The notes under the pieces: generated by a model | What the model saw: only the letters and a program-made list of their open reading frames with translations | Databases searched by the model: none | What the model was told of the DNA's origin: nothing | From: Methanolobus sp. ZRKC5 | GTDB lineage: Archaea; Halobacteriota; Methanosarcinia; Methanosarcinales; Methanosarcinaceae | Length of the DNA stretch: 64,000 nt | Assembly: GCF_038446525.1 (NCBI RefSeq) | Contig: NZ_CP151792.1 | Span: forward strand, 496,001-560,000 | Direction: 5' to 3' | Shown: positions 1 through 51,864 of the stretch, in pieces | Numbering within the stretch: the stretch's first letter is position 1 | Layout: every line of letters starts with the position of its first letter | Position numbers and translations under genes: made by a program

Positions 1-1040
1 TCATTGATAACATCATTTACCATGAGTACTGCAGGATCATAGGATAGCTGCAGGTTCACACCACGAAGGTTCTCATCAGCTGAATCAACATCAACTTCCA
101 CCAGGAACGTGTCACCGATATCGACAGGTCCACTTGTTACTGGAGATATTATAACCTCCGGCACGTCAGAGACCACTCCGTCAGCTACCTGAACGGTAGC
201 ATCCGTGACACTTACTCCAGCGATAGCTGTATTGGTTTCATCCTTGAGAACTACAGTGTTCAGGTCAAGGTCATAGGTTCCGTCTGTTGCACCAGCCTTC
301 ACTTCGAACTCAATGGTTAACATTGTTCCGGCTTCTGGTGTGTAGGTTCCGGCAGTGGAAGCGATACCACATGCTATGGTGCCTGCTCCGTCATCACCAC
401 AAGATATAGTGAGTGTGTCGGATCCAAACAGTTCATCGTTGGTAACGTCATTTACCATGAGTACTGCAGGATCATAGGCTAGCTGTAGGTTCACACCACG
501 AAGATTCTCGTCGGCTGAATCGACTTCAACCTCTACCACGAACGTGTCACCAGGGCCAACAGGACCGCTTGTTGCAGGAGTTATTTTCACTTCTGGTTCA
601 TCAGGTGTAGGTACTACAACATCATCCCCTACTTTCAATGTTCCATCTGTGACCCCAACTCCAACGATAGGTTCATTGGCTTCATCCTTAAGAACAACAC
701 CATTTAGATCAAGGTCGTAAGTGCCATTTGCTGCACCTGCCTTTACCTCGAAATCAACGGTTAACATTGTTCCGGCTTCTGGTGTGTAGGTTCCGGCGGT
801 GGAAGCGATACCACATGCTATGGTGCCTGCTCCGTCGTCACCACACGATATAGTGAGTGTGTCGGTTCCAAACAGTTCCTCATTGGTAACGTCATTCACC
901 ACGAGCACTGAAGGATCATAGGCTAGTTGCAGGTTCACGCCACGAAGGTTAGCGGTCTCAGAATCGACCATAACACTAACCTGGAACGTATCGCCTGCAT
1001 CATACTCATTTGTCTGCGGATCTACTGACACTGAAGGTGC
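1..1040. repeat. Tandem DNA repeat of about 435-444 bp encoding cohesin modules
   Basis: The motif CATGAGTACTGCAGGATCAT occurs at 21 and at 456, and a diverged copy starts at 900, giving periods of 435 and 444 bp (145 and 148 codons). Long stretches between, such as the segment around TGGTGCCTGCTCCGTC, are nearly identical. Both periods are multiples of three, so the repeat is a protein-domain duplication. Confidence 0.9.
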
Positions 1041-1136
1041 TGCTGCTGCAAGTCCTACGCCTACCATGAAACATGCACAAAATATTAAAAGGATGGCAGT
1101 TGATCCTGCCATTCCCTTACGTGTTGTTTTTGTCAT
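1..1136 (-). CDS. Exported protein with tandem cohesin-like domains (partial, runs off left edge)
   Basis: Open frame on the minus strand starting at an ATG at 1136 and still open at base 1, so only the N-terminal 378 residues are seen. A GAGGTGA ribosome site lies just upstream. The protein starts with a signal peptide (basic MTKTTRKG, hydrophobic core, AAAA before the mature APSVSVD). Then come repeated modules of about 145-148 residues; each has a DTFxVxVxVDS strand, an NLRGVNLQL.YDP segment and a GTYDLDLN strand, the pattern of cohesin domains. Two full modules and part of a third are visible. Cohesins bind dockerins; the gene directly upstream in transcription, 22 nt away, encodes a dockerin protein, so this may be a small scaffoldin. 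The fold is assigned by pattern; the C-terminus and any anchor lie outside the window. Confidence 0.8.
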   Translation of the reverse strand, partial: MTKTTRKGMAGSTAILLIFCACFMVGVGLAAAAPSVSVDPQTNEYDAGDTFQVSVMVDSETANLRGVNLQLAYDPSVLVVNDVTNEELFGTDTLTISCGDDGAGTIACGIASTAGTYTPEAGTMLTVDFEVKAGAANGTYDLDLNGVVLKDEANEPIVGVGVTDGTLKVGDDVVVPTPDEPEVKITPATSGPVGPGDTFVVEVEVDSADENLRGVNLQLAYDPAVLMVNDVTNDELFGSDTLTISCGDDGAGTIACGIASTAGTYTPEAGTMLTIEFEVKAGATDGTYDLDLNTVVLKDETNTAIAGVSVTDATVQVADGVVSDVPEVIISPVTSGPVDIGDTFLVEVDVDSADENLRGVNLQLSYDPAVLMVNDVIN

Positions 1137-1158
1137 GATTTCACCTCTTACATCAGGC

Positions 1159-4100
1159 TTAAGACTGATATACTCCTGCAAACTCTACGAAGTCATCGAA
1201 GTCTACGTCACCGTCGTCATCGAAGTCGAAGATTGCATTGTAGTTGCTGTCACCAATTACTGAGTTGTAGGATGCTGCAAATTCAACAAAGTCGTCGAAG
1301 TTGACAACCTTATCACCGTTGATATCACCCTTTATCTCCTCGACTGGTGGCTCTACAACTGCAGCGCCGCCGTTCATGTAGATACCAGTACCATCTGTTG
1401 GATCATGTGTGAACATCATCCTTGGATAGACTGGTGGAATCTCGACATTGTCACACAGTACAGTGTTTGGTGCTGTGAATGAACTGGTCAGCAGATAGTC
1501 ACCATTTCCACCTGCATTTGGCACATCTGGATAGACAAACTCCTTGTAGAAGTCTGGCATTGTCCTGATGTGCAGCCACTTCCATGTCTCGAATGAGTCA
1601 GCTGGAACTGAGTCTGCTGTACCAACTATACCACAGCCTTCTCTGAGAATTTCCAGGAGGTTGGTATGGAACCTTGCCTCATAGTCCTTACCTGTGAAGT
1701 AGATCTCTGTTGCTGGCACGTCAAACATGCGTTCTGCAACTGTATCGTAAACACTGCTGATGTACATGTCATGATACCAGAGCAGATCATCTGTTGCGCT
1801 GTAATCGCGTGACTGTCCGTAGTAGCATGTTGTAATTGGATTCACCTTGAATGTAGGTACGTCGATGTCATCGATCATAATGTGGTCACCATTGAATGGT
1901 GGCAGCACAGGAATGATATCACCGTCATACACAGCCTTCTTGACAACTGAAAGGTCATTCAGGGAAACATCCTGGTGTTCTGGCAGTGGATTCCTTATAG
2001 TGATGTACTTGACATTGTTGTCCTCTGGGCCATAGATCATTGCAACATCGTATTCAGCACCGTCCACGAAGAAAGTCTCGCTTGTGTGGAGAAGACGTCC
2101 GACACGTAGCAGTACCTTATCGTTAATTGTACTGGTACCAAGTATCTGCATTGCCCATGGGTCATAGAAGTCAGGAGTATCCATTACTACGGTGTGACGT
2201 CCTGCACTCAGGACACCCTGCTCAACATTGATGACATGGAGGCCATTTATCTGTTCAGGGACTGTGTTACCGTTGTAGAATATCTTGACTGCAACTCTGT
2301 CAATCTCACCCTCACCATCATAGTAGATACCTTCAATCTCTACAATGTGGTCAAGGAACTGTATCTTGTCACCTACGTCGACTCCGAATATCTCAGAACC
2401 TAGTGCTACATCCTTCCTTCCATCATTGTTGAAGTCAGTTGCTGCGAGCAGATAGGTCATATCGTCGATACCGTCGTAGTTCATGTCAAAGCTGTCAAGA
2501 CCGATCTGAGAGTCATCCATGTCAGATATAGGGAACCAGAAGTATGTCCAGAGTCCTGCATCCTGGTCCATGAAGTCACAGAAGCTGTTAGCATTGCCCT
2601 CGGAAGTAGCCATACCTGCTGTTGGCTGGTAGTGCTTGTCAATGAACATGTATGTGTACTCATTGATTACATCTTCCCAGACGTACTCATTGTGGTTTGG
2701 TATCCACTCATTGTATACTTCGTCAAGCCAGACCATACCGGTTGGTTCAGTGTACTCAGGGACGAACCACTGTCTGAAGAATACCTTCTCATGTGAGTCC
2801 TTGTTGTCCACAACAATTCCTGCCTTAATCTTAGCCGGATTGAGTGTTACAAAGTCCTTTTCAGGTGCTTCAGGGCTTAGTGGATCAAATGGTGCTTCAG
2901 GATCAACATATGGGAATGCAGCATCCCTATCTTCTTCACCATAGACTCTAAGTCCGTTTGTTTCGGTGTCAATTTCATTGACATAGATATCTTCAGCTCC
3001 TGTCTCCTGGTCATAGACGAACATAAGTCTCTGTGGCCAGTTGAAGTTGTCAATGTTGCAAATGTACTGATAAAAGTCAGGACACTTCTTTGAGTTCTCT
3101 GCTCTGAATGAGCTTGTGAACAGGAAGTCACCTGTACCATCATCTGCATCAGGCAGCTCTGGATAGACAAAGTCCTTGTAGAAATCTGGCATTGTCCTGA
3201 TGTGTAGCCACTTCCATGCCTCGTCAATTTCGAGAGATGGACTTAGATCTGCACCTTCGTCAAGCATCTCAAGCAGATTGGTGTGGAACCGTGGTTCAGT
3301 TGTCTTGTCAATGAAGTAGATCAGCAATGGATCAACATCGTATATCTTACGCTCTTCTACTGTGTCGTAAGCACTGTATATGCAATCATCCTGATACCAT
3401 TCTCCATCAGGAGCATTTGTATTGAGGCTTGAACCTACATACCCAGTGTAAGCACAGCAGTTTTCAGTATGCGGAATGTTGATATCATCTACCATTGTGT
3501 GCACCTTGTTGAATGGTGGCAGCAATGGAAGAGTTTCTTCATTGTCAACCATTTCTTTGACAATTGAGAGGTCATTAATTTCAACATCCTGATGTTCTGG
3601 AACTGGGTTCCTGATTGTGATGTACTTAACTGAATCATCTTCAGGACCATAGATCATTGCGACATCATATTCTGCACCGTCTACGAAGAAAGTCTCTCTG
3701 GTGTAGAGCTGGCGTCCTACGGTCAAAAGAACCTTATCAAGGCCTGCACCTGTGGCTTCTACCTTAACATACCATGGTTCATAGAACTGTGGTCTGTCCA
3801 GTGTAACAGTATGACGACCTGAACTCAGTGTTCCCTGCTCAACATTGAGGACATGGAGACCACCAATTTGTTCAGCTTCCTTGTTACCGTTGTAGAATAC
3901 CTTGAATGCGACTCTGTCTATCTCACCCTCACCATCATAGTAGATACCTTCTACCTCTACAATGTGGTCAAGGAACTGTACGCTTTCGCCTACTCCTACA
4001 GCGAGCAGCTCAGAGCTGATCTTTATATCCTTGTAATCATCATGGTTGAAATCTCCTACTCTCTTAAGCAGGACCATGTCATCAACACCATCATAGTTGA

Positions 4101-4728
4101 TGTCATAACCATCAAGACCTATTTGTTCATCGTCATTGTCTGCTACTGGGAACCAGAATGTTGTCCAGTAAGCATTTGTTATACCCTTTGCAGTTGCAGC
4201 CCTTGGCTGGTAGTGCTTGTCGACGAACATGTAAGTATAATCTGTGACTACATCCTCCCAGACATATTCGTTGTGATCTGGAATCCATTCACAATCCCAG
4301 TCACATGATGGTGGCTTTCTGAATGATTCAGCTGAATCCTCAGTTATAGTTTCTTCTGTTGTAATGTTATCAACTTTCACTATACACCTGAAATCATCAA
4401 GCCATACCATACCCGTTGGTTCTGTGTACTCAGGCACGAACCACTGTCTGGCAAAAACCTTCTGTTTGGAGTCGATATTGTTCACGACAATATCATCTTC
4501 CAGCAAGGCTGGGTTAAACGTTACAAAATCTTTTATAGGCGATTCTTCATTCATTGGATCAAATGGTGCTTCTGGATCAGTGTATGGGAATGCGGCACTG
4601 TATCCATTTTCACCGTAGATTCGCAATGAATTTGCATCATCTGCAGCACTAGCAGGTGTTACTATTGAAAAAATAGTAATCAAAGCAATAGCAACCACTA
4701 AATGCTTGTGCTGGAACTTCACTTTCAT
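1159..4728 (-). CDS. Large exported duplicated protein with C-terminal type I dockerin
   Basis: 1189 residues. Signal peptide at the N-terminus with an ASA/AD cleavage site near residue 28, and a strong GGAGGA ribosome site. Residues 35-575 and 592-1115 are two copies of one module; both share FPYxDPEAPFDP, RQWFVPEYTEPTGMVWLD, EYTYMF.DKHYQP and VEGIYYDGEGEIDRVA. Each module has Asp/Asn-rich stretches (DxNxDGxDD, DFNxDxxKD) like calcium-binding FG-GAP loops. I do not recognise the module family. The last 57 residues carry two 12-residue F-hand calcium loops (DINGDKVVNFDDF and DFDDDGDVDFDDF, each followed by VEFA), the hallmark of a type I dockerin. It should dock on a cohesin; a cohesin gene follows 22 nt downstream and another cohesin protein is encoded 0.7 kb upstream. 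Its substrate or structural role is unknown. Confidence 0.85.
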   Translation of the reverse strand: MKVKFQHKHLVVAIALITIFSIVTPASAADDANSLRIYGENGYSAAFPYTDPEAPFDPMNEESPIKDFVTFNPALLEDDIVVNNIDSKQKVFARQWFVPEYTEPTGMVWLDDFRCIVKVDNITTEETITEDSAESFRKPPSCDWDCEWIPDHNEYVWEDVVTDYTYMFVDKHYQPRAATAKGITNAYWTTFWFPVADNDDEQIGLDGYDINYDGVDDMVLLKRVGDFNHDDYKDIKISSELLAVGVGESVQFLDHIVEVEGIYYDGEGEIDRVAFKVFYNGNKEAEQIGGLHVLNVEQGTLSSGRHTVTLDRPQFYEPWYVKVEATGAGLDKVLLTVGRQLYTRETFFVDGAEYDVAMIYGPEDDSVKYITIRNPVPEHQDVEINDLSIVKEMVDNEETLPLLPPFNKVHTMVDDINIPHTENCCAYTGYVGSSLNTNAPDGEWYQDDCIYSAYDTVEERKIYDVDPLLIYFIDKTTEPRFHTNLLEMLDEGADLSPSLEIDEAWKWLHIRTMPDFYKDFVYPELPDADDGTGDFLFTSSFRAENSKKCPDFYQYICNIDNFNWPQRLMFVYDQETGAEDIYVNEIDTETNGLRVYGEEDRDAAFPYVDPEAPFDPLSPEAPEKDFVTLNPAKIKAGIVVDNKDSHEKVFFRQWFVPEYTEPTGMVWLDEVYNEWIPNHNEYVWEDVINEYTYMFIDKHYQPTAGMATSEGNANSFCDFMDQDAGLWTYFWFPISDMDDSQIGLDSFDMNYDGIDDMTYLLAATDFNNDGRKDVALGSEIFGVDVGDKIQFLDHIVEIEGIYYDGEGEIDRVAVKIFYNGNTVPEQINGLHVINVEQGVLSAGRHTVVMDTPDFYDPWAMQILGTSTINDKVLLRVGRLLHTSETFFVDGAEYDVAMIYGPEDNNVKYITIRNPLPEHQDVSLNDLSVVKKAVYDGDIIPVLPPFNGDHIMIDDIDVPTFKVNPITTCYYGQSRDYSATDDLLWYHDMYISSVYDTVAERMFDVPATEIYFTGKDYEARFHTNLLEILREGCGIVGTADSVPADSFETWKWLHIRTMPDFYKEFVYPDVPNAGGNGDYLLTSSFTAPNTVLCDNVEIPPVYPRMMFTHDPTDGTGIYMNGGAAVVEPPVEEIKGDINGDKVVNFDDFVEFAASYNSVIGDSNYNAIFDFDDDGDVDFDDFVEFAGVYQS

Positions 4729-4868
4729 TGTTAATATCCTCCTTTCTTAAGCCATACCGACTCTTCGATACCACCAAACATAACTCCGTCTCCATTTGCT
4801 CAATGATATCTACGTGAAGTTGCCTTAGACAATCCTACCGACAACCCCTATTATTCATATGAAGTTAG

Positions 4869-4884
4869 ATTTTATAAACCGATA
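4869..4884 (-). promoter_or_regulatory. Probable archaeal promoter of the dockerin-cohesin operon
   Basis: On the minus strand the sequence reads CGGTTTATAAAATC, a good BRE/TATA arrangement with TTTATAAA at 4871-4878. A start about 25 nt downstream would give a leader of roughly 120 nt before the dockerin gene. The site lies between that gene and the small membrane-protein gene, so the pair at 1-4728 can be transcribed independently. Confidence 0.5.
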
Positions 4885-5006
4885 AGAAATAAAAATTCAG
4901 AACTATGTTAACAAATTAAGATACGAAACATTGTTCCTTAACAAAAATATCTCAAGAAAGGGAATTAGAAACAATAAACATTCGAAAATAAAAAAATGAA
5001 TAATCA

Positions 5007-5417
5007 TCAAACATTGAAGTTACTATGCGCTGAAACAAAGATAGTATCATAGGCAAATGTCAGCCATAGGAGAAATGGAAAAGCTATCCTACCAATGGCA
5101 TATGTATAAAGTAATTGATCCTGATAAGAGAAGAAAAGTAGCTGCAAATATATTATCAACAAATTAAAAGCAATTGTCAGTATCAGACCCATCAGCAAGA
5201 TTTTGATTGTCTTCTTCCTTTCAAAAGCCGTAGCAAGCACGAGAGCTACAAAAGGAATAAAATTCAAAGGAAGGTAAAACAAAAAAAAATTCTTTAAATC
5301 AACAATAACGACGGAAGCTGCAAAGTATCTTCCGCCTATTGGAACCCACAAAATGAACAAAATAGTCAGATAAAGAAAAAACCTTTTCAAAAAAGGTAAG
5401 ATTCGTATCGTGTCCAT
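5007..5417 (-). CDS. Small four-helix membrane protein of the cohesin locus
   Basis: 136 residues, almost entirely hydrophobic, with about four membrane helices (residues 12-35, 45-62, 70-95, 105-125) and a short basic ERKK loop between helices 2 and 3. It follows the anchored cohesin gene by 21 nt and is probably co-transcribed. The NFIPFVALVLAT segment is reminiscent of small membrane proteins that accompany exosortases, but that is from memory and weak. The gene position suggests a role in export, sorting or anchoring of the cohesin protein. No catalytic residues are apparent. Confidence 0.6.
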   Translation of the reverse strand: MDTIRILPFLKRFFLYLTILFILWVPIGGRYFAASVVIVDLKNFFLFYLPLNFIPFVALVLATAFERKKTIKILLMGLILTIAFNLLIIYLQLLFFSYQDQLLYTYAIGRIAFPFLLWLTFAYDTIFVSAHSNFNV

Positions 5418-5438: not shown

Positions 5439-6974
5439 TTATGGTTTACCTTTCTCAAAGACACCTTTTATACAACATATTATCGACAGGGATAAAAAAC
5501 CCATAAAGAAACCAAAACCAGGGGTTGCCTGTGATTCATCCTCATTTCCAGGTACATCCTCCCCCTCCAATACATCATCCTGGGACGATGCCAGCTTTTC
5601 CTTCATTTCATCAGGATTGACAAGTTTGAAAACAACAGGAACTTCACTTAGTCCTATAGCCACGGCTTCTTTGTTCATTGTCTCATAGATATCATTTATG
5701 AGGGACTTAATATCAACATCTGCCTCCTCATTTATATTTACCTCTAAGTATCCGTCAGGTGATAGTCCTGTACTCAGAAGTATGCCACTTTGCAAATAAT
5801 CATCCACCTCATCACTTGCATTAAGGGATATAACGTATGAATCCTGGAAGTACCATTGCCAGCATTCCTTTTCAGTTCTTATCTGAGGTATCTTTCCGGC
5901 TGTGGCCACTACCATAGGATCATACAACTGACTTTCATTGTTCATGAAATCTTCAAGTTCCATCTTGTTTATTACCTGTACCCTTTGAATTAGTTGCTGC
6001 AATCCGTCACTTACATCAGAAACTGTGCCGTCGCCAAATTCCACAGGCACATTATCTATATCCATAGCCTGTGCCTTACGATCAATTATTGCATATATTT
6101 CATCGATCTCGGACTGGTCTACCATGAGAGGTTCGTAGAATATGACGGTCAGGTAACCGGCGGAGTTAGTGCCGATGGATATTATCTTACCCTGTGGAAA
6201 GAGATGCTGGCCTTCGAATTCTGTCAAAATTTCATTCTCCAGTATGAGACTGTTCTGTGACCAGGCATCCCCATTTAGTGCTACCCCGTTCCTTTTTATA
6301 ATTTTATGGTCATCCGGATGGAAACCGAAGCTGTATGCATACCCTAATTGTTCCTCGTATTGCTGTTGAGAGGTCACTTTTTCCACAGTAGATGTTGATG
6401 AGCTACTGCTCGATGTACTTTGTGTGGGACGGTCCAAGTCAATTATGTCCAGGGATGTTGAAGTATCATCCGCTATATCCCCAACTACCAGGGAACTTCC
6501 GGTTGCTTTCCCGACAAGGTATTCTTTACTCTGATCCAGAAGCTTCGCTTCCACGAAGCTAAGACCGTAAACACCCTCAGTAATATCCTTTGTCTCGAAT
6601 TCGACAGATATCAATGTTCCGCTTCCGGGTGCTAAGTTAGTTTCGTAAGCAGCAAATCCATAATTTATCGTGCCATCCCCATCATCACCACTTTCGGGCT
6701 CCACAAGTAAATCAGAATCGAAGATACTTCCTTTCGTAATATCGATTACCTCGAATGCAGCAGAATCATAATGTAACTTTATGTGTGCTGCATGTAAAAG
6801 CTCAACACCGGATTCCACATTAATATCCACATTAAATGTTTCACCAGGAGATAAACCGGTGTGTGATTCAGGAGAGATGAAAACAGATGCCGTTGCCGAT
6901 ACACTCCCGATAGCTGCCATCAGGACCAATAGTGTAAGGATTGAATATCTGAGATAGTTGCTAATACTCCACAT
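5439..6974 (-). CDS. Cohesin-domain surface protein with probable PGF-type C-terminal anchor
   Basis: 511 residues. Signal peptide (residues 1-27), then one cohesin-like domain (about 29-165; ETFNVDINVESG, HAAHIKLHYD, GTLISVEFETK). A Ser/Thr-rich linker follows (183-198), then two copies of a small module (about 245-315 and 395-455), each with a GYLxV strand, a D..I.xIY helix and VPV.F. The C-terminus is an acidic stretch, TPGFGFF (485-487 = PGF), a hydrophobic helix and a short KGKP tail, resembling the PGF-CTERM signals processed by archaeosortases. This is the expected layout of a cell-attached cohesin that could hold the dockerin protein encoded downstream. Start ATG at 6974 is preceded by a G-rich ribosome site. 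The C-terminal sorting call is by pattern only. Confidence 0.75.
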   Translation of the reverse strand: MWSISNYLRYSILTLLVLMAAIGSVSATASVFISPESHTGLSPGETFNVDINVESGVELLHAAHIKLHYDSAAFEVIDITKGSIFDSDLLVEPESGDDGDGTINYGFAAYETNLAPGSGTLISVEFETKDITEGVYGLSFVEAKLLDQSKEYLVGKATGSSLVVGDIADDTSTSLDIIDLDRPTQSTSSSSSSTSTVEKVTSQQQYEEQLGYAYSFGFHPDDHKIIKRNGVALNGDAWSQNSLILENEILTEFEGQHLFPQGKIISIGTNSAGYLTVIFYEPLMVDQSEIDEIYAIIDRKAQAMDIDNVPVEFGDGTVSDVSDGLQQLIQRVQVINKMELEDFMNNESQLYDPMVVATAGKIPQIRTEKECWQWYFQDSYVISLNASDEVDDYLQSGILLSTGLSPDGYLEVNINEEADVDIKSLINDIYETMNKEAVAIGLSEVPVVFKLVNPDEMKEKLASSQDDVLEGEDVPGNEDESQATPGFGFFMGFLSLSIICCIKGVFEKGKP

Positions 6975-19942: not shown

Positions 19943-21580
19943 CTTCTTTTGTAACTATTCAGCCTAGCTCACTTCCACCAAGCTGATTTCTTCATCCACG
20001 ATCAATTCTGCAACTTTGGAACAAATGAATTGCCATAAAATATTGCACTAATTGCATCGATAACAGATTCAGAATTCTTATTAACAGTAGACACGTATCC
20101 TCTTATACGGCAGAAATTTTTTGCACCCTGTTTACTGCGGAAAGTACCTGATATCTTCTGCTGTACTTTCGTCATTCTGATATCTCTTTCAGCCTGATTG
20201 TTATCAAACGGAACGTTTTGGTCGTACATAAATCGCAAGATATCCTCTTTATGGCCAATAAACCTATCCAGCAAATTCTTTACCGTGGTCTGCTTCTTAC
20301 GTCCTCGTTTTTTAGACCGCACATTTGATTCCGGATCAGGAGGATTTTCATTCACTCCTAAACAAGTTATGTGATCATAATCCTCACTGAACCTTTGAAT
20401 TAGCTCAGTATCTAAAAGATCATTATCAACATGATGTTTAATGCATATCAAGAGATCACTCATTATCTTTGTCCACTGTTGATCACTGTTTTCGGAAGCT
20501 CCAGTTAACTCTCGTAATAAATGTGCATTACATAATGAATGTTGACATTCATATTTGTTGTACGGTTTCCAAAAATCATGTGTTGCAACACCAGTGTAAC
20601 CTGGTAATATGCCCATAGCATCCATTGCTTCTGAGCCCCTTTTACGATGTGCAAAATAATAGGTCAGTTTGTCTGTACCTGCCACATGAAGCCAATTACG
20701 AACTGCATTTATTCTCATTCCTGTTTCATCCAGATTGATGACAGGAGATTCTTTCAGGAGATGTTTCACTGTATTTTCAAAAGCTCCAAGCTTCTCAAAA
20801 CAACTACGTTCCGTGTTCACCAAAGTAGCAGGACTTATCTTGCATCCCAAAATATCAGAGAACAACTTGGTAACACGCTGATAAGGAAGTAATTGGTAAG
20901 TGTGCAAATAAACTGCAAATGACTTAACTCGATGACCGTATTGAGTCGGCTGAGTTACACCATCTGGAAAAAGAGCTTTGTTTACATGAGAACATTTGGG
21001 ACATGTTTTAATCTCGCAACGATGTTCAATGCAATTGATAGTTATAGGAGGAATGTCAAAGACCTGTCTTCTTTCATAGTTAGAGGGAACAGAAGCTAAC
21101 GATCTCCCACAATTGACGCATTGATTAACAGGATGAACAATAACTTCATCCGGATCATCATTTATTCTTAATGTAGTACCAGGATGACCGTTTTGACCAC
21201 CTACATGCTTATTGGTCTTTTTTCTTTGACTTTTAACGGTTGGTTTATTCCGTGCATAAGAATCAGTAGAAGGTGGTTTGCTACTGTTGCGACTATTCTT
21301 TTCAAGCATTTCTTCCAAATGCCTGACACGCTCTTCAAGTTGTGCAATTTGGAGAGATTGATGTTCAATTATCCCAAGTAATCGAGTTACAAGTTCTACT
21401 ACTGCTTCTGGACCAGCTTCATAAACTGCAAGTATTTCTTCGCGGTCTATACAAATCCCCTCAGATTGATAGACGTTTTTTATGATATTTTACTGAATAT
21501 TTTTTAACACATAGAATGAAGCCATAGTATATTGTTTTTTGCATCATTAAAACAGTTAGGCTGAATAGTTACCTTCTTTT
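19943..21580 (-). mobile_element. IS66-family element, copy 1 (ISBst12-like), with 8-bp target duplication
   Basis: The element is 19951-21572 (1622 bp). Its ends are inverted repeats GTAACTATTCAGCCT, and CTTCTTTT is duplicated at 19943-19950 and 21573-21580. It carries one transposase gene and no tnpA/tnpB, as in the ISBst12 group. It is the same length as the copy at 49567-51188 and differs from it in only one residue of the protein. It landed inside the 3' end of a small zinc-ribbon gene. Confidence 0.93.
20002..21450 (-). CDS. IS66-family transposase, copy 1
   Basis: 482 residues if translation starts at the ATA codon at 21450. That codon follows GAGGGG by 6 nt, and the frame from there reads IDREEILAVYEAGPEAVV, matching the usual start of this family; the first conventional candidate is a TTG at 21318. 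A coiled N-terminus is followed by NSRNSSKPPSTD, a zinc-ribbon with CxxC pairs (CVNCG, CPKC) and the DDE domain (INLDETGMR, CNAHLLREL, PFDNNQAERDIRMTK). It differs from copy 2 by Asn for Asp in the S(N/D)YERR segment. Confidence 0.9.
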   Translation of the reverse strand: MDREEILAVYEAGPEAVVELVTRLLGIIEHQSLQIAQLEERVRHLEEMLEKNSRNSSKPPSTDSYARNKPTVKSQRKKTNKHVGGQNGHPGTTLRINDDPDEVIVHPVNQCVNCGRSLASVPSNYERRQVFDIPPITINCIEHRCEIKTCPKCSHVNKALFPDGVTQPTQYGHRVKSFAVYLHTYQLLPYQRVTKLFSDILGCKISPATLVNTERSCFEKLGAFENTVKHLLKESPVINLDETGMRINAVRNWLHVAGTDKLTYYFAHRKRGSEAMDAMGILPGYTGVATHDFWKPYNKYECQHSLCNAHLLRELTGASENSDQQWTKIMSDLLICIKHHVDNDLLDTELIQRFSEDYDHITCLGVNENPPDPESNVRSKKRGRKKQTTVKNLLDRFIGHKEDILRFMYDQNVPFDNNQAERDIRMTKVQQKISGTFRSKQGAKNFCRIRGYVSTVNKNSESVIDAISAIFYGNSFVPKLQN

Positions 21581-22525: not shown

Positions 22526-22654
22526 ACTTGTGAATAACTGACAAGTATTATAATAAAATCTATTTTTATTTTGAATTCCGAAGTTAGCCAGTTGATAAAA
22601 AATATAGAACTTTTCACAAAAAAGATAATACAGATTGTGTCTTTTCTGCTTTAC

Positions 22655-23479
22655 ATGAAAACAATTCTCTTCCTGTTAATTTTAAGTATCACATTAATAC
22701 TTTCATCGGGTTGCGTTGAAGACACTTCTGTAGATTCCCTTATAAGTTATCTGGACAACGAAAATGAAAGTATCAGAACCGCTTCAATAGACAAGCTTGC
22801 GGAAATCGGAGATGAAAAAACAGTTGCATCATTGAACCAGATGGTCAAAGATGACAACAGGACAATTGAAGAACGGAAAAATGCGATTACTGTTCTTGGC
22901 ATGATAGGCGGTAATAGTACGGCAGAGATGCTTCTGAACATTTCCCTGGACGAAGAGGAAGAAAAATATCTGAGGATGGCTTCGATACTCGCTCTTGGAG
23001 AGATAGGTGATGATACTATGATCAAGCCCCTCAAAGAGGTGGGTTATGGTGATGACGGACTCATCCTGTACCATGCTGCGTATGTTCTTGATCCGATGGA
23101 GGATAAAGAAGATGTTTACGCAACCTATGGAAAACTTCCATACCCATTGAGTGAAGACCAAAGGCTTTACAGGAACAATGTAGGTGAAATAAGAGGAACA
23201 TATAGAGCTGATGGTACTTTTCCGGAAATTGAAAATGCCACTAGTATTCTAATTGGTTATAATGTAAAAACAGGTTACATAGAGATTTCGAGTGATGTGG
23301 AACCTGAACCCTCTGTAATGGATGAGATCTACCAGATATATGATACTGAGGCAAGAAAAAGAGCCATCTATCAGGTTCCAGTAAGATTTGTTCGTTGTGG
23401 ATCTGCAGCCCCATTGGAAGGTTACTGGTATAATATCTCAGATATTGCTGAATTCAATATCACAAATATATCTTTTTAG
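22655..23479 (+). CDS. HEAT-repeat lipoprotein
   Basis: 274 residues from the ATG at 22655; an open frame continues upstream to a TTG at 22571 but the lipoprotein signal fits the later start (MKTILFLLIL, lipobox LSSGC with Cys20). Residues 27-145 contain three to four HEAT-like (PBS-lyase type) helical repeats with the SIDKLAEIGDEKTVASL pattern. The C-terminal part (about 185-255) matches the small GYxxI / DEIYxIYD / VPVRF module also found twice in the cohesin protein at 5439-6974. Likely a membrane-attached binding protein; the partner is unknown. Confidence 0.72.
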   Translation: MKTILFLLILSITLILSSGCVEDTSVDSLISYLDNENESIRTASIDKLAEIGDEKTVASLNQMVKDDNRTIEERKNAITVLGMIGGNSTAEMLLNISLDEEEEKYLRMASILALGEIGDDTMIKPLKEVGYGDDGLILYHAAYVLDPMEDKEDVYATYGKLPYPLSEDQRLYRNNVGEIRGTYRADGTFPEIENATSILIGYNVKTGYIEISSDVEPEPSVMDEIYQIYDTEARKRAIYQVPVRFVRCGSAAPLEGYWYNISDIAEFNITNISF

Positions 23480-49558: not shown

Positions 49559-51196
49559 AATGAAATGTAACTATTCAGCCTGACTGTTTTAATGATGCAA
49601 AAAACAATATACTATGGCTTCATTCTATGTGTTAAAAAATATTCAGTAAAATATCATAAAAAACGTCTATCAATCTGAGGGGATTTGTATAGACCGCGAA
49701 GAAATACTTGCAGTTTATGAAGCTGGTCCAGAAGCAGTAGTAGAACTTGTAACTCGATTACTTGGGATAATTGAACATCAATCTCTCCAAATTGCACAAC
49801 TTGAAGAGCGTGTCAGGCATTTGGAAGAAATGCTTGAAAAGAATAGTCGCAACAGTAGCAAACCACCTTCTACTGATTCTTATGCACGGAATAAACCAAC
49901 CGTTAAAAGTCAAAGAAAAAAGACCAATAAGCATGTAGGTGGTCAAAACGGTCATCCTGGTACTACATTAAGAATAAATGATGATCCGGATGAAGTTATT
50001 GTTCATCCTGTTAATCAATGCGTCAATTGTGGGAGATCGTTAGCTTCTGTTCCCTCTGACTATGAAAGAAGACAGGTCTTTGACATTCCTCCTATAACTA
50101 TCAATTGCATTGAACATCGTTGCGAGATTAAAACATGTCCCAAATGTTCTCATGTAAACAAAGCTCTTTTTCCAGATGGTGTAACTCAGCCGACTCAATA
50201 CGGTCATCGAGTTAAGTCATTTGCAGTTTATTTGCACACTTACCAATTACTTCCTTATCAGCGTGTTACCAAGTTGTTCTCTGATATTTTGGGATGCAAG
50301 ATAAGTCCTGCTACTTTGGTGAACACGGAACGTAGTTGTTTTGAGAAGCTTGGAGCTTTTGAAAATACAGTGAAACATCTCCTGAAAGAATCTCCTGTCA
50401 TCAATCTGGATGAAACAGGAATGAGAATAAATGCAGTTCGTAATTGGCTTCATGTGGCAGGTACAGACAAACTGACCTATTATTTTGCACATCGCAAAAG
50501 GGGCTCAGAAGCAATGGATGCTATGGGCATATTACCAGGTTACACTGGTGTTGCAACACATGATTTTTGGAAACCGTACAACAAATATGAATGTCAACAT
50601 TCATTATGTAATGCACATTTATTACGAGAGTTAACTGGAGCTTCCGAAAACAGTGATCAACAGTGGACAAAGATAATGAGTGATCTCTTGATATGCATTA
50701 AACATCATGTTGATAATGATCTTTTAGATACTGAGCTAATTCAAAGGTTCAGTGAGGATTATGATCACATAACTTGTTTAGGAGTGAATGAAAATCCTCC
50801 TGATCCGGAATCAAATGTGCGGTCTAAAAAACGAGGACGTAAGAAGCAGACCACGGTAAAGAATTTGCTGGATAGGTTTATTGGCCATAAAGAGGATATC
50901 TTGCGATTTATGTACGACCAAAACGTTCCGTTTGATAACAATCAGGCTGAAAGAGATATCAGAATGACGAAAGTACAGCAGAAGATATCAGGTACTTTCC
51001 GCAGTAAACAGGGTGCAAAAAATTTCTGCCGTATAAGAGGATACGTGTCTACTGTTAATAAGAATTCTGAATCTGTTATCGATGCAATTAGTGCAATATT
51101 TTATGGCAATTCATTTGTTCCAAAGTTGCAGAATTGATCGTGGATGAAGAAATCAGCTTGGTGGAAGTGAGCTAGGCTGAATAGTTACAATGAAAT
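49559..51196 (+). mobile_element. IS66-family element, copy 2, with 8-bp target duplication
   Basis: The element is 49567-51188 (1622 bp) with GTAACTATTCAGCCT inverted repeats. AATGAAAT is duplicated at 49559-49566 and 51189-51196. The duplicated bases contain the start codon of the PEF-CTERM gene, whose ribosome site AGGTGG (49546-49551) now lies 1.6 kb away. Confidence 0.95.
49689..51137 (+). CDS. IS66-family transposase, copy 2
   Basis: 482 residues if started at ATA 49689 (GAGGGG at 49677-49682, 6 nt upstream); the first conventional start would be TTG 49821, which would drop 44 conserved residues. The domain order is the same as in copy 1: coiled coil, SSKPPSTD, zinc-ribbon, DDE catalytic domain. 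One residue differs from copy 1 (Asp in SDYERR). Confidence 0.9.
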   Translation: MDREEILAVYEAGPEAVVELVTRLLGIIEHQSLQIAQLEERVRHLEEMLEKNSRNSSKPPSTDSYARNKPTVKSQRKKTNKHVGGQNGHPGTTLRINDDPDEVIVHPVNQCVNCGRSLASVPSDYERRQVFDIPPITINCIEHRCEIKTCPKCSHVNKALFPDGVTQPTQYGHRVKSFAVYLHTYQLLPYQRVTKLFSDILGCKISPATLVNTERSCFEKLGAFENTVKHLLKESPVINLDETGMRINAVRNWLHVAGTDKLTYYFAHRKRGSEAMDAMGILPGYTGVATHDFWKPYNKYECQHSLCNAHLLRELTGASENSDQQWTKIMSDLLICIKHHVDNDLLDTELIQRFSEDYDHITCLGVNENPPDPESNVRSKKRGRKKQTTVKNLLDRFIGHKEDILRFMYDQNVPFDNNQAERDIRMTKVQQKISGTFRSKQGAKNFCRIRGYVSTVNKNSESVIDAISAIFYGNSFVPKLQN

Positions 51197-51864
51197 TTGA
51201 AAAACTGTTATTGGTATTAGTTGTTACTTTAATAATATCCCTCGTGAGTATCAGTCCTGCTCTGGGAACTGCTTATAGAGATGTGGAATTTTCTTCCGGT
51301 GCCATGTCCTTTGCAGATGAGATAGTGGATTGCCAACTTAATGGTGGTGCATCTGCCGGTGATATAAATAAGATACTTGGAAAACCAAACAACAAATGTG
51401 TAAGTCTTGGAACAAAGGGTTATGCTATTGTAAAATTTACAGACAATTCCCTGACAACTTCTGGAGACAATAGCTATGATCTGGCTGTTTTTGAAACTGG
51501 CATTTTCACAGAAGAACTTGTAGAGGTTTTTATAAGCACAGATGGCAAGAACTGGATAAAGATCGGTAATGCCAACAAGAAAACATTGTTTGATATAGAT
51601 GCAGTAGATGGTGTGCTCAAAAACGAAAAATATAGTTACGTCAAACTCATTGATCTTACCGGACTCAACAAGGGTAAATCATATGAAGGTGCCGATATGG
51701 ATGCAGTCGGAGCTATAACATCAACAAGCCCGGTTTTGGAAGAGGCTGAAGATGAGAAATGTGAAACACCTGTTGAGACTAATATTCCTGAATTCCCAAC
51801 AATAGTACTTCCAATGATAGCTATTCTCGGACTTGCATTCATCCATGGAAAAAAGAAAGAATAA
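51190..51864 (+). CDS. Exported protein with PEF-CTERM sorting tail
   Basis: 224 residues. A signal peptide (1-28, ending ALG), a beta-rich domain with DLAVFETGIFTEELVEVFIST, then IPEFPTIVLPMIAILGLAF and a KKKE tail, the PEF-CTERM pattern recognised by archaeosortase. The domain resembles discoidin-like or LPS-binding beta sandwiches, not identified. The ATG is intact within the IS66 target duplication, but its ribosome site and likely promoter (TTATAA at 49480-49485) are beyond the element. Confidence 0.8.
   Translation: MKFEKLLLVLVVTLIISLVSISPALGTAYRDVEFSSGAMSFADEIVDCQLNGGASAGDINKILGKPNNKCVSLGTKGYAIVKFTDNSLTTSGDNSYDLAVFETGIFTEELVEVFISTDGKNWIKIGNANKKTLFDIDAVDGVLKNEKYSYVKLIDLTGLNKGKSYEGADMDAVGAITSTSPVLEEAEDEKCETPVETNIPEFPTIVLPMIAILGLAFIHGKKKE

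Follow-up and report, generated by a model that had tools for sequence, protein, structure and literature searches.

Anchoring scaffoldins of bacterial cellulosomes (SdbA/OlpB type) carry SLH repeats and expose a cohesin at the cell surface, by which a dockerin protein is received. Substrates of archaeosortase A (ArtA) and their lipid anchoring have been studied in Haloferax. Cohesins and dockerins also occur outside cellulosomes in archaea, as exemplified by the Archaeoglobus cohesin 2xdh and by scaffoldin-like proteins of ANME archaea (PMC9012536). In the sections of that paper considered here, PGF-CTERM is named only for cytochromes, and a cohesin anchor of the kind described below does not appear. 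According to sections of a second paper, PGF-CTERM proteins like the Haloferax S-layer glycoprotein are sorted by ArtA, whose gene lies beside pssD and pssA in Methanosarcina (PMC7157517). In bacteria, the exosortase XrtH has a partner, the exosortase H-associated protein (model NF041730). Searches of the open-licence PMC literature gave no description of a cohesin anchor with an archaeosortase-type tail, little on archaeosortase B (ArtB), nothing on a partner protein of it and, by text search, nothing on XrtH.

We analysed a stretch of 64,000 nucleotides, hereafter the window, which corresponds to positions 496001-560000 of the single 3.05-Mb contig of the Methanolobus sp. ZRKC5 genome. One of its loci resembles the archaeal non-cellulosomal systems in the cohesin fold, in having several cohesins on one protein and in its surface dockerins, but differs from them by a single-cohesin protein (the anchor) that has a PGF-type tail and is encoded 21 nt from the gene of a putative sortase partner. 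Like the SdbA/OlpB-type scaffoldins, the anchor would offer a surface cohesin to a dockerin protein, yet it possesses a sortase-type tail instead of SLH repeats. With ArtA substrates it shares the PGF motif, a hydrophobic helix and a basic end, and ArtA of this genome also lies beside genes resembling pssD and pssA (named by eye); in contrast to these substrates, it fails the models TIGR04126 and PF18204 and its basic end is weak. The putative sortase partner (4TM protein) is similar to the bacterial XrtH partner in being a small multi-helix protein whose relatives are encoded beside a sortase. However, this family never reaches 35 bits on NF041730, its partner is ArtB, and in Methanolobus it is encoded beside the cohesin anchor and away from the sortase. 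The features of the locus, and one further gene of the window, are:

1..1181, minus strand: 5' part of the gene of a three-cohesin scaffold (contig 494893-497181, extending beyond the window); cohesin matches
1159..4728, minus strand: secreted protein of 1189 aa with two long repeats and a C-terminal dockerin; ORF and profile matches
1159..1341, minus strand: dockerin with two mirror-image calcium-loop halves; profile similarity and loop comparison
5007..5417, minus strand: 4TM-type protein of 136 aa without Cys, its family a probable partner of ArtB; 21 nt downstream of the anchor gene
5439..6974, minus strand: cohesin anchor gene, 511 aa; ORF with ATG start, Pfam cohesin, 9 orthologs in Methanolobus genomes
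6894..6974, minus strand: signal peptide-like N-terminus, residues 1-27; hydropathy, helix 4-21 in the model, cleavage site by eye
6480..6890, minus strand: cohesin module, residues 29-165; Pfam E=1.6e-11 and fold match to solved cohesins
6351..6479, minus strand: Ser-rich linker, residues 166-208; read from the sequence, low pLDDT at 184-214
6021..6341, minus strand: module 1, residues 212-318; predicted order strand-helix-strand-strand-helix-strand
5619..5933, minus strand: module 2, residues 348-452, a relative of module 1; hhalign probability 96.7
5514..5522, minus strand: PGF motif, residues 485-487; invariant in 10/10 orthologs
5442..5513, minus strand: C-terminal helix and basic tail, residues 488-511; hydropathy and model
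22571..23479, plus strand: HEAT-repeat protein with one copy of the anchor's module at its end; profile comparison

The domain order initially proposed for the anchor (signal peptide, cohesin, Ser-rich linker, module pair, TPGF with helix and basic tail) proved to be real, the whole architecture being kept in ten orthologs. The N-terminus is hydrophobic (maximum KD15 2.36) and ends with ...GSVSA-TAS. Residues 36-150 matched the Pfam cohesin family PF00963 with 45 bits, well above the gathering cut-off of 24.1. An AlphaFold2 model calculated from 26 sequences reached a mean pLDDT of 77.9, and in a structure search, which covered almost solely the cohesin part, its residues 27-166 matched best to 6kgf_A (Z 16.6, 2.0 A over 135 residues); 2xdh scored Z 15.4. 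By this similarity, the anchor cohesin is a candidate receptor for a dockerin. The relatedness of the two modules emerged from profile-versus-profile comparison, while their order of strands and helices is that of the AlphaFold2 model alone. An acidic linker connects module 2 to TPGF. Single or double copies of the module are widespread, as a query consisting of modules and tail matched 68 of the 111 genomes of the family at E<=0.001. In one relative (L095 2303-3457), a single copy precedes a weak match to trypsin-like peptidases (E=5e-4, below the cut-off), and judged by this protein the module may act as a domain of propeptide or inhibitor type.

The gene of the dockerin protein is located two genes downstream of the anchor gene and is followed by that of the three-cohesin protein. 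Its C-terminal 60 aa matched solved cellulosomal dockerins by profile (2y3n_B, E=2.1e-4), and in the calcium loops and duplicated helices the two halves mirror each other in each species and co-vary between species. Pfam Dockerin_1 gave no match over its cut-off in 1159-1341, and a Pfam scan of the protein did not disclose any enzyme or carbohydrate-binding module over cut-off. A model of the second repeat and the dockerin was unusable (mean pLDDT 38). The dockerin protein is better conserved (66-81% to the window copy) than the anchor (40-70%). Elsewhere in the genome, only two dockerins of the same type were detected at E<1e-10. One belongs to a secreted protein with what we take to be a CAP-like domain; the other lies on a second such gene (L109 3424-4002 and 5015-5515) that is similar to L108 3253-4227 and apparently split by a transposase-like ORF (4054-4998).

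Altogether 17 cohesin matches were obtained in the genome. The anchor cohesin is nearest to the three cohesins of the scaffold (32-35% identity; others 16-29%), and a cohesin tree placed it within a group of 12 rows that was not resolved further. A second set of cohesins and dockerins was noticed at L043 and L044, where LamG-type proteins (by eye) contain a cohesin and a different type of dockerin and each adjoin a single-cohesin protein of 179-181 aa with a plain transmembrane tail. Moreover, L045 1183-5424 encodes a protein of 1413 aa with an S-layer domain, NosD repeats, PKD and three cohesins, the C-terminal domain of which looks like that of the cohesin scaffold.

The tail of the anchor reads ATPGFGFFMGFLSLSIICCIKGVFEKGKP, with the helix at residues 488-507 in the predicted model. 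All ten orthologs possess the tripartite arrangement of PGF, hydrophobic stretch and basic residues, the basic part being weak; in the window copy it consists of three K and no R. The original prediction had deduced archaeosortase anchoring from this tail. When the PGF-CTERM model TIGR04126 was run, the window tail was not among the 14 matches at E<=10, and none of 17 related proteins matched. Likewise, it was not among the seven genomic matches of PF18204 at E<=0.001, and the only one of the 17 related proteins that matched this model (E=0.045) was not the window's own. A model built from seven PGF tails of this genome did not separate the anchor tails (<=3.7 bits) from plain p240 tails (<=2.9 bits), and the window's own tail was not among the 60 matches listed for it. 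Because the curated HMMs did not recognise the tail, we did not class the anchor as a member of PGF-CTERM; most likely, it functions like one. The P-G-F residues were invariant in 10/10 anchor orthologs, while the surrounding helix and end showed a mean pairwise identity of 37%. Following the last module, five of 46 gap-free columns were invariant across the ten orthologs, and P, G and F are consecutive among them. The tail drifts otherwise and has no second run of invariant columns; the chance that three preset columns all fall among the five is 6.6e-4. The tails of p240, a protein of the same cluster that also ends in a helix and basic residues, contain PGF in 0/9 cases. Alignment A1 also contains seven two-module proteins that are more distantly related; six of these kept PGF and one has PSF. 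Further exceptions among relatives are PSF (L070), SGF (L080) and two proteins ending without such a tail.

The search for archaeosortase genes suggested along with the prediction was successful, since TIGR04125 identified ArtA in the genome with 268 bits (cut-off 75). An apparent lack of ArtA in this genome, where PF09721 had found only ArtB and archaeosortase C, was ruled out by the same match. Among the 27 Methanolobus genomes, 26 contain ArtA. Thus, archaeosortase anchoring is backed by the PGF-type tail and by the presence of ArtA, but not by the two curated HMMs nor by the seven-tail model, and of the two observations that were jointly to refute it, the tail did fail the HMM, whereas behaviour as a plain helix is opposed by a PGF that stayed invariant while the helix drifted. 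ArtA-type anchoring of the cohesin anchor by cleavage and lipid attachment is likely. Besides ArtA, the genome encodes archaeosortase C (345 bits), and the window contains at 51190-51864 a secreted protein whose PEF-CTERM tail exceeded the cut-off (28.6 versus 23 bits).

The full anchor protein was found in 10 of the 27 Methanolobus genomes, with 44-100% identity over modules and tail. In all ten, the genes are arranged in the order anchor, 4TM, dockerin protein and cohesin scaffold, and in nine p240 comes next; the tenth contig stops inside the scaffold gene. The gap between anchor and 4TM does not exceed 28 nt in 9/10 orthologous loci. A gap of 278 nt, in which a TATA-like stretch was noticed by eye, separates the 4TM gene from the dockerin gene, and dockerin protein and anchor may be on separate transcripts. 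A sigma-70 promoter scan gave nothing above chance; this promoter type is the wrong one for archaea.

The locus is bounded by Sua5 and sufC (gene names by eye). Six traced genomes (G000, G042, G039, G058, G063, G053) share the order Sua5, anchor, 4TM, dockerin protein, scaffold, p240, ArtB block and sufC. In the ArtB block, two paired genes of DUF116-like appearance (by eye) precede one or two genes for proteins with a VPXXXP-type tail and then ArtB; some genomes have a small wHTH-like gene there as well. Four other genomes (G043, G059, G060, G061), whose dockerin protein is more distant, uniformly show Sua5, dockerin protein, scaffold, p240 and sufC. Hence the pair of anchor and 4TM and the ArtB block were either both present (6/6) or both absent (4/4) in the traced loci, with a core of three genes between them; the six are those of the ten anchor-bearing genomes that were traced to ArtB on one contig. 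ArtB of the locus scored 187 bits (cut-off 150). A VPXXXP tail that was examined reached 15.1 bits against a curated cut-off of 30; the VPXXXP-type proteins of the locus are likely clients of ArtB. Four genomes lack the anchor but retain the dockerin protein and the scaffold, so that in these genomes the core does not need it. This weakens the claim that the anchor is an obligatory scaffold base, while its proposed role as a surface receptor agrees with a surface cohesin, a PGF-type tail and a dockerin protein encoded two genes away. By eye, p240 of the four anchor-less genomes seemed to have a PEF-CTERM tail, but TIGR03024 matched in 0/4.

The 4TM protein was considered as a sortase itself and rejected, as none of its ten orthologs contains Cys and there is no invariant His. 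It co-occurs with the anchor in 10/27 Methanolobus genomes without exception. A family-wide search revealed the 4TM family in 25 and ArtB in 23 of the 111 genomes. Both were present in 21 genomes, only 4TM in four (G015, weak; G031, with stops; G054 and G110, draft), only ArtB in two (G049, G106) and neither in 84 (Fisher p=1.3e-16, ignoring relatedness). Within Methanolobus, the corresponding numbers were 9, 1, 1 and 16 (p=2e-5, again ignoring relatedness). ArtB was found in five of the 14 genera of the family. Where both genes occur in three other genera (10 genomes), 4TM comes directly after ArtB in 10/10. In six of the nine Methanolobus genomes with both genes, they reside on one contig and one strand, 10.8-18.0 kb apart (15.9 kb for the window's 4TM gene), and separation was likewise seen in a fifth genus, g14 (12.5 kb in G109).

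When 392 genomes of the phylum were searched by profile, the 4TM family turned up in 28, twelve of them outside this taxonomic family. Fourteen loci from the latter (of 15 matches) were inspected: an ArtB-like gene is immediately beside 4TM in nine and fused to it in three, and the fetched flanks of two (L169, L174) contained no ArtB-like gene. The single-ORF fusions stem from other archaeal families (L165 979-2133, L167 856-1998, L172 793-1977). NCBIfam assigned the fusion proteins to archaeosortase B/exosortase H, one fused sortase domain exceeding the XrtH cut-off (96 versus 86 bits); ArtB gave 71-84 bits on this model. Of ten scanned proteins outside the family, only two matched NF041730 (cut-off 35 bits), namely residues 169-294 of the L172 fusion (21.4 bits) and the stand-alone 4TM protein of L173 (26.9 bits). 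Within the family, sub-threshold matches were obtained for 7 of 18 4TM relatives, the best with 19.2 bits; the window's 4TM protein had no match. Judged from these sequence comparisons, what connects the family with the bacterial XrtH partner is remote similarity and the same gene company, not membership. We concluded that the 4TM proteins are probably a new family of archaeosortase partners. The suggestion that the small membrane protein downstream of the anchor takes part in processing was corroborated insofar as it is linked to protein sorting, but co-occurrence, adjacency and fusions connect its family to ArtB and not to ArtA.

At two of the three fusion loci, secreted cohesin proteins (L167 1-650 and L172 1-530, both minus strand; profile E about 1e-29) are the immediate divergent neighbours of the fusion genes, and no other cohesin was seen among the 176 ORFs of the scanned loci. 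Both loci belong to one family, which is perhaps rich in cohesins, so this neighbourhood is suggestive only.

We regard it as moderately probable that the anchor is a membrane-held cohesin that has its PGF tail processed by ArtA and catches a dockerin, and that the 4TM protein is a partner of ArtB. The anchor would be exported via its signal peptide and held at the membrane by the PGF-type tail, which most likely is cut and replaced by a lipid through ArtA. Its cohesin, displayed by means of a Ser-rich stalk and the pair of small modules, would catch the dockerin of the 1189-aa surface protein, and the three-cohesin scaffold might cross-link this same protein. The 4TM protein would be the Methanolobus form of the ArtB partner, an archaeal counterpart of the exosortase H-associated protein, and probably helps ArtB to sort the VPXXXP-type proteins, which are encoded at the opposite end of the locus. 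A wider scheme, in our opinion speculative and quite unlikely, regards ArtB as a two-part machine of enzyme and 4TM protein, at times fused, whose 4TM part was recruited to the cohesin anchor in Methanolobus. Such a dedicated sortase system would assemble or attach a coat built with dockerins, and the anchor would be a client of ArtB and 4TM or an adaptor joining dockerin proteins to those sorted by ArtB.

Other explanations were weighed against the preferred one. Were the tail an ordinary transmembrane anchor, the protein would remain in the membrane uncut and PGF would be kept for another reason. The failure of both curated HMMs would fit, and so would the inability of the seven-tail model to tell anchor tails from p240 tails and the existence of other cohesins of this genome with plain transmembrane tails (e.g., L043 2767-3306, L044 3761-4306). 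We think this rather unlikely, because PGF is the only invariant run in a drifting tail (6.6e-4) and absent from all nine p240 tails, and because ArtA is present in the genome.

Two further readings start from the locus itself. Anchor, 4TM and ArtB may merely be neighbours lost or gained jointly without a functional link. All of them reside in one Sua5-sufC locus, whose linkage alone could produce joint presence and absence; however, the variable segments flank a retained core of three genes, so that they are not both removed by one simple deletion. Loci of other families have 4TM next to ArtB (nine loci) or joined to it in one ORF (three loci), which bears on the pair of 4TM and ArtB only and not on that of anchor and ArtB. 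Overall, such hitch-hiking seems improbable. Least probable, in our view, is sorting of the anchor by ArtB and the 4TM partner instead of ArtA. The short distance between anchor and 4TM (21 nt, at most 28 nt in 9/10), their co-occurrence in 10/27 genomes without exception and the joint presence or absence of this pair and the ArtB block speak in its favour. But the tail contains PGF and not VPXXXP, the VPXXXP-type proteins of the locus look like ArtB clients, and the same modules are joined to PGF tails in genus g13, which is not among the 5/14 genera with ArtB.

Under the preferred reading, with the anchor processed by ArtA and 4TM assisting ArtB, a conserved partner that is fused to ArtB in three loci offers a direct handle on the mechanism of exosortase-like enzymes, with a parallel to bacterial XrtH. 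With a single cohesin anchor, a single scaffold and one principal dockerin partner, the locus also provides a small test set for the roles of cohesins and dockerins in archaea not known to degrade cellulose. Finally, two near-identical transposase-like ORFs of 438 aa are located in the window in opposite orientation (20002-21318 and 49821-51137), and more copies of this ORF were encountered at L044, L049, L050 and L108.
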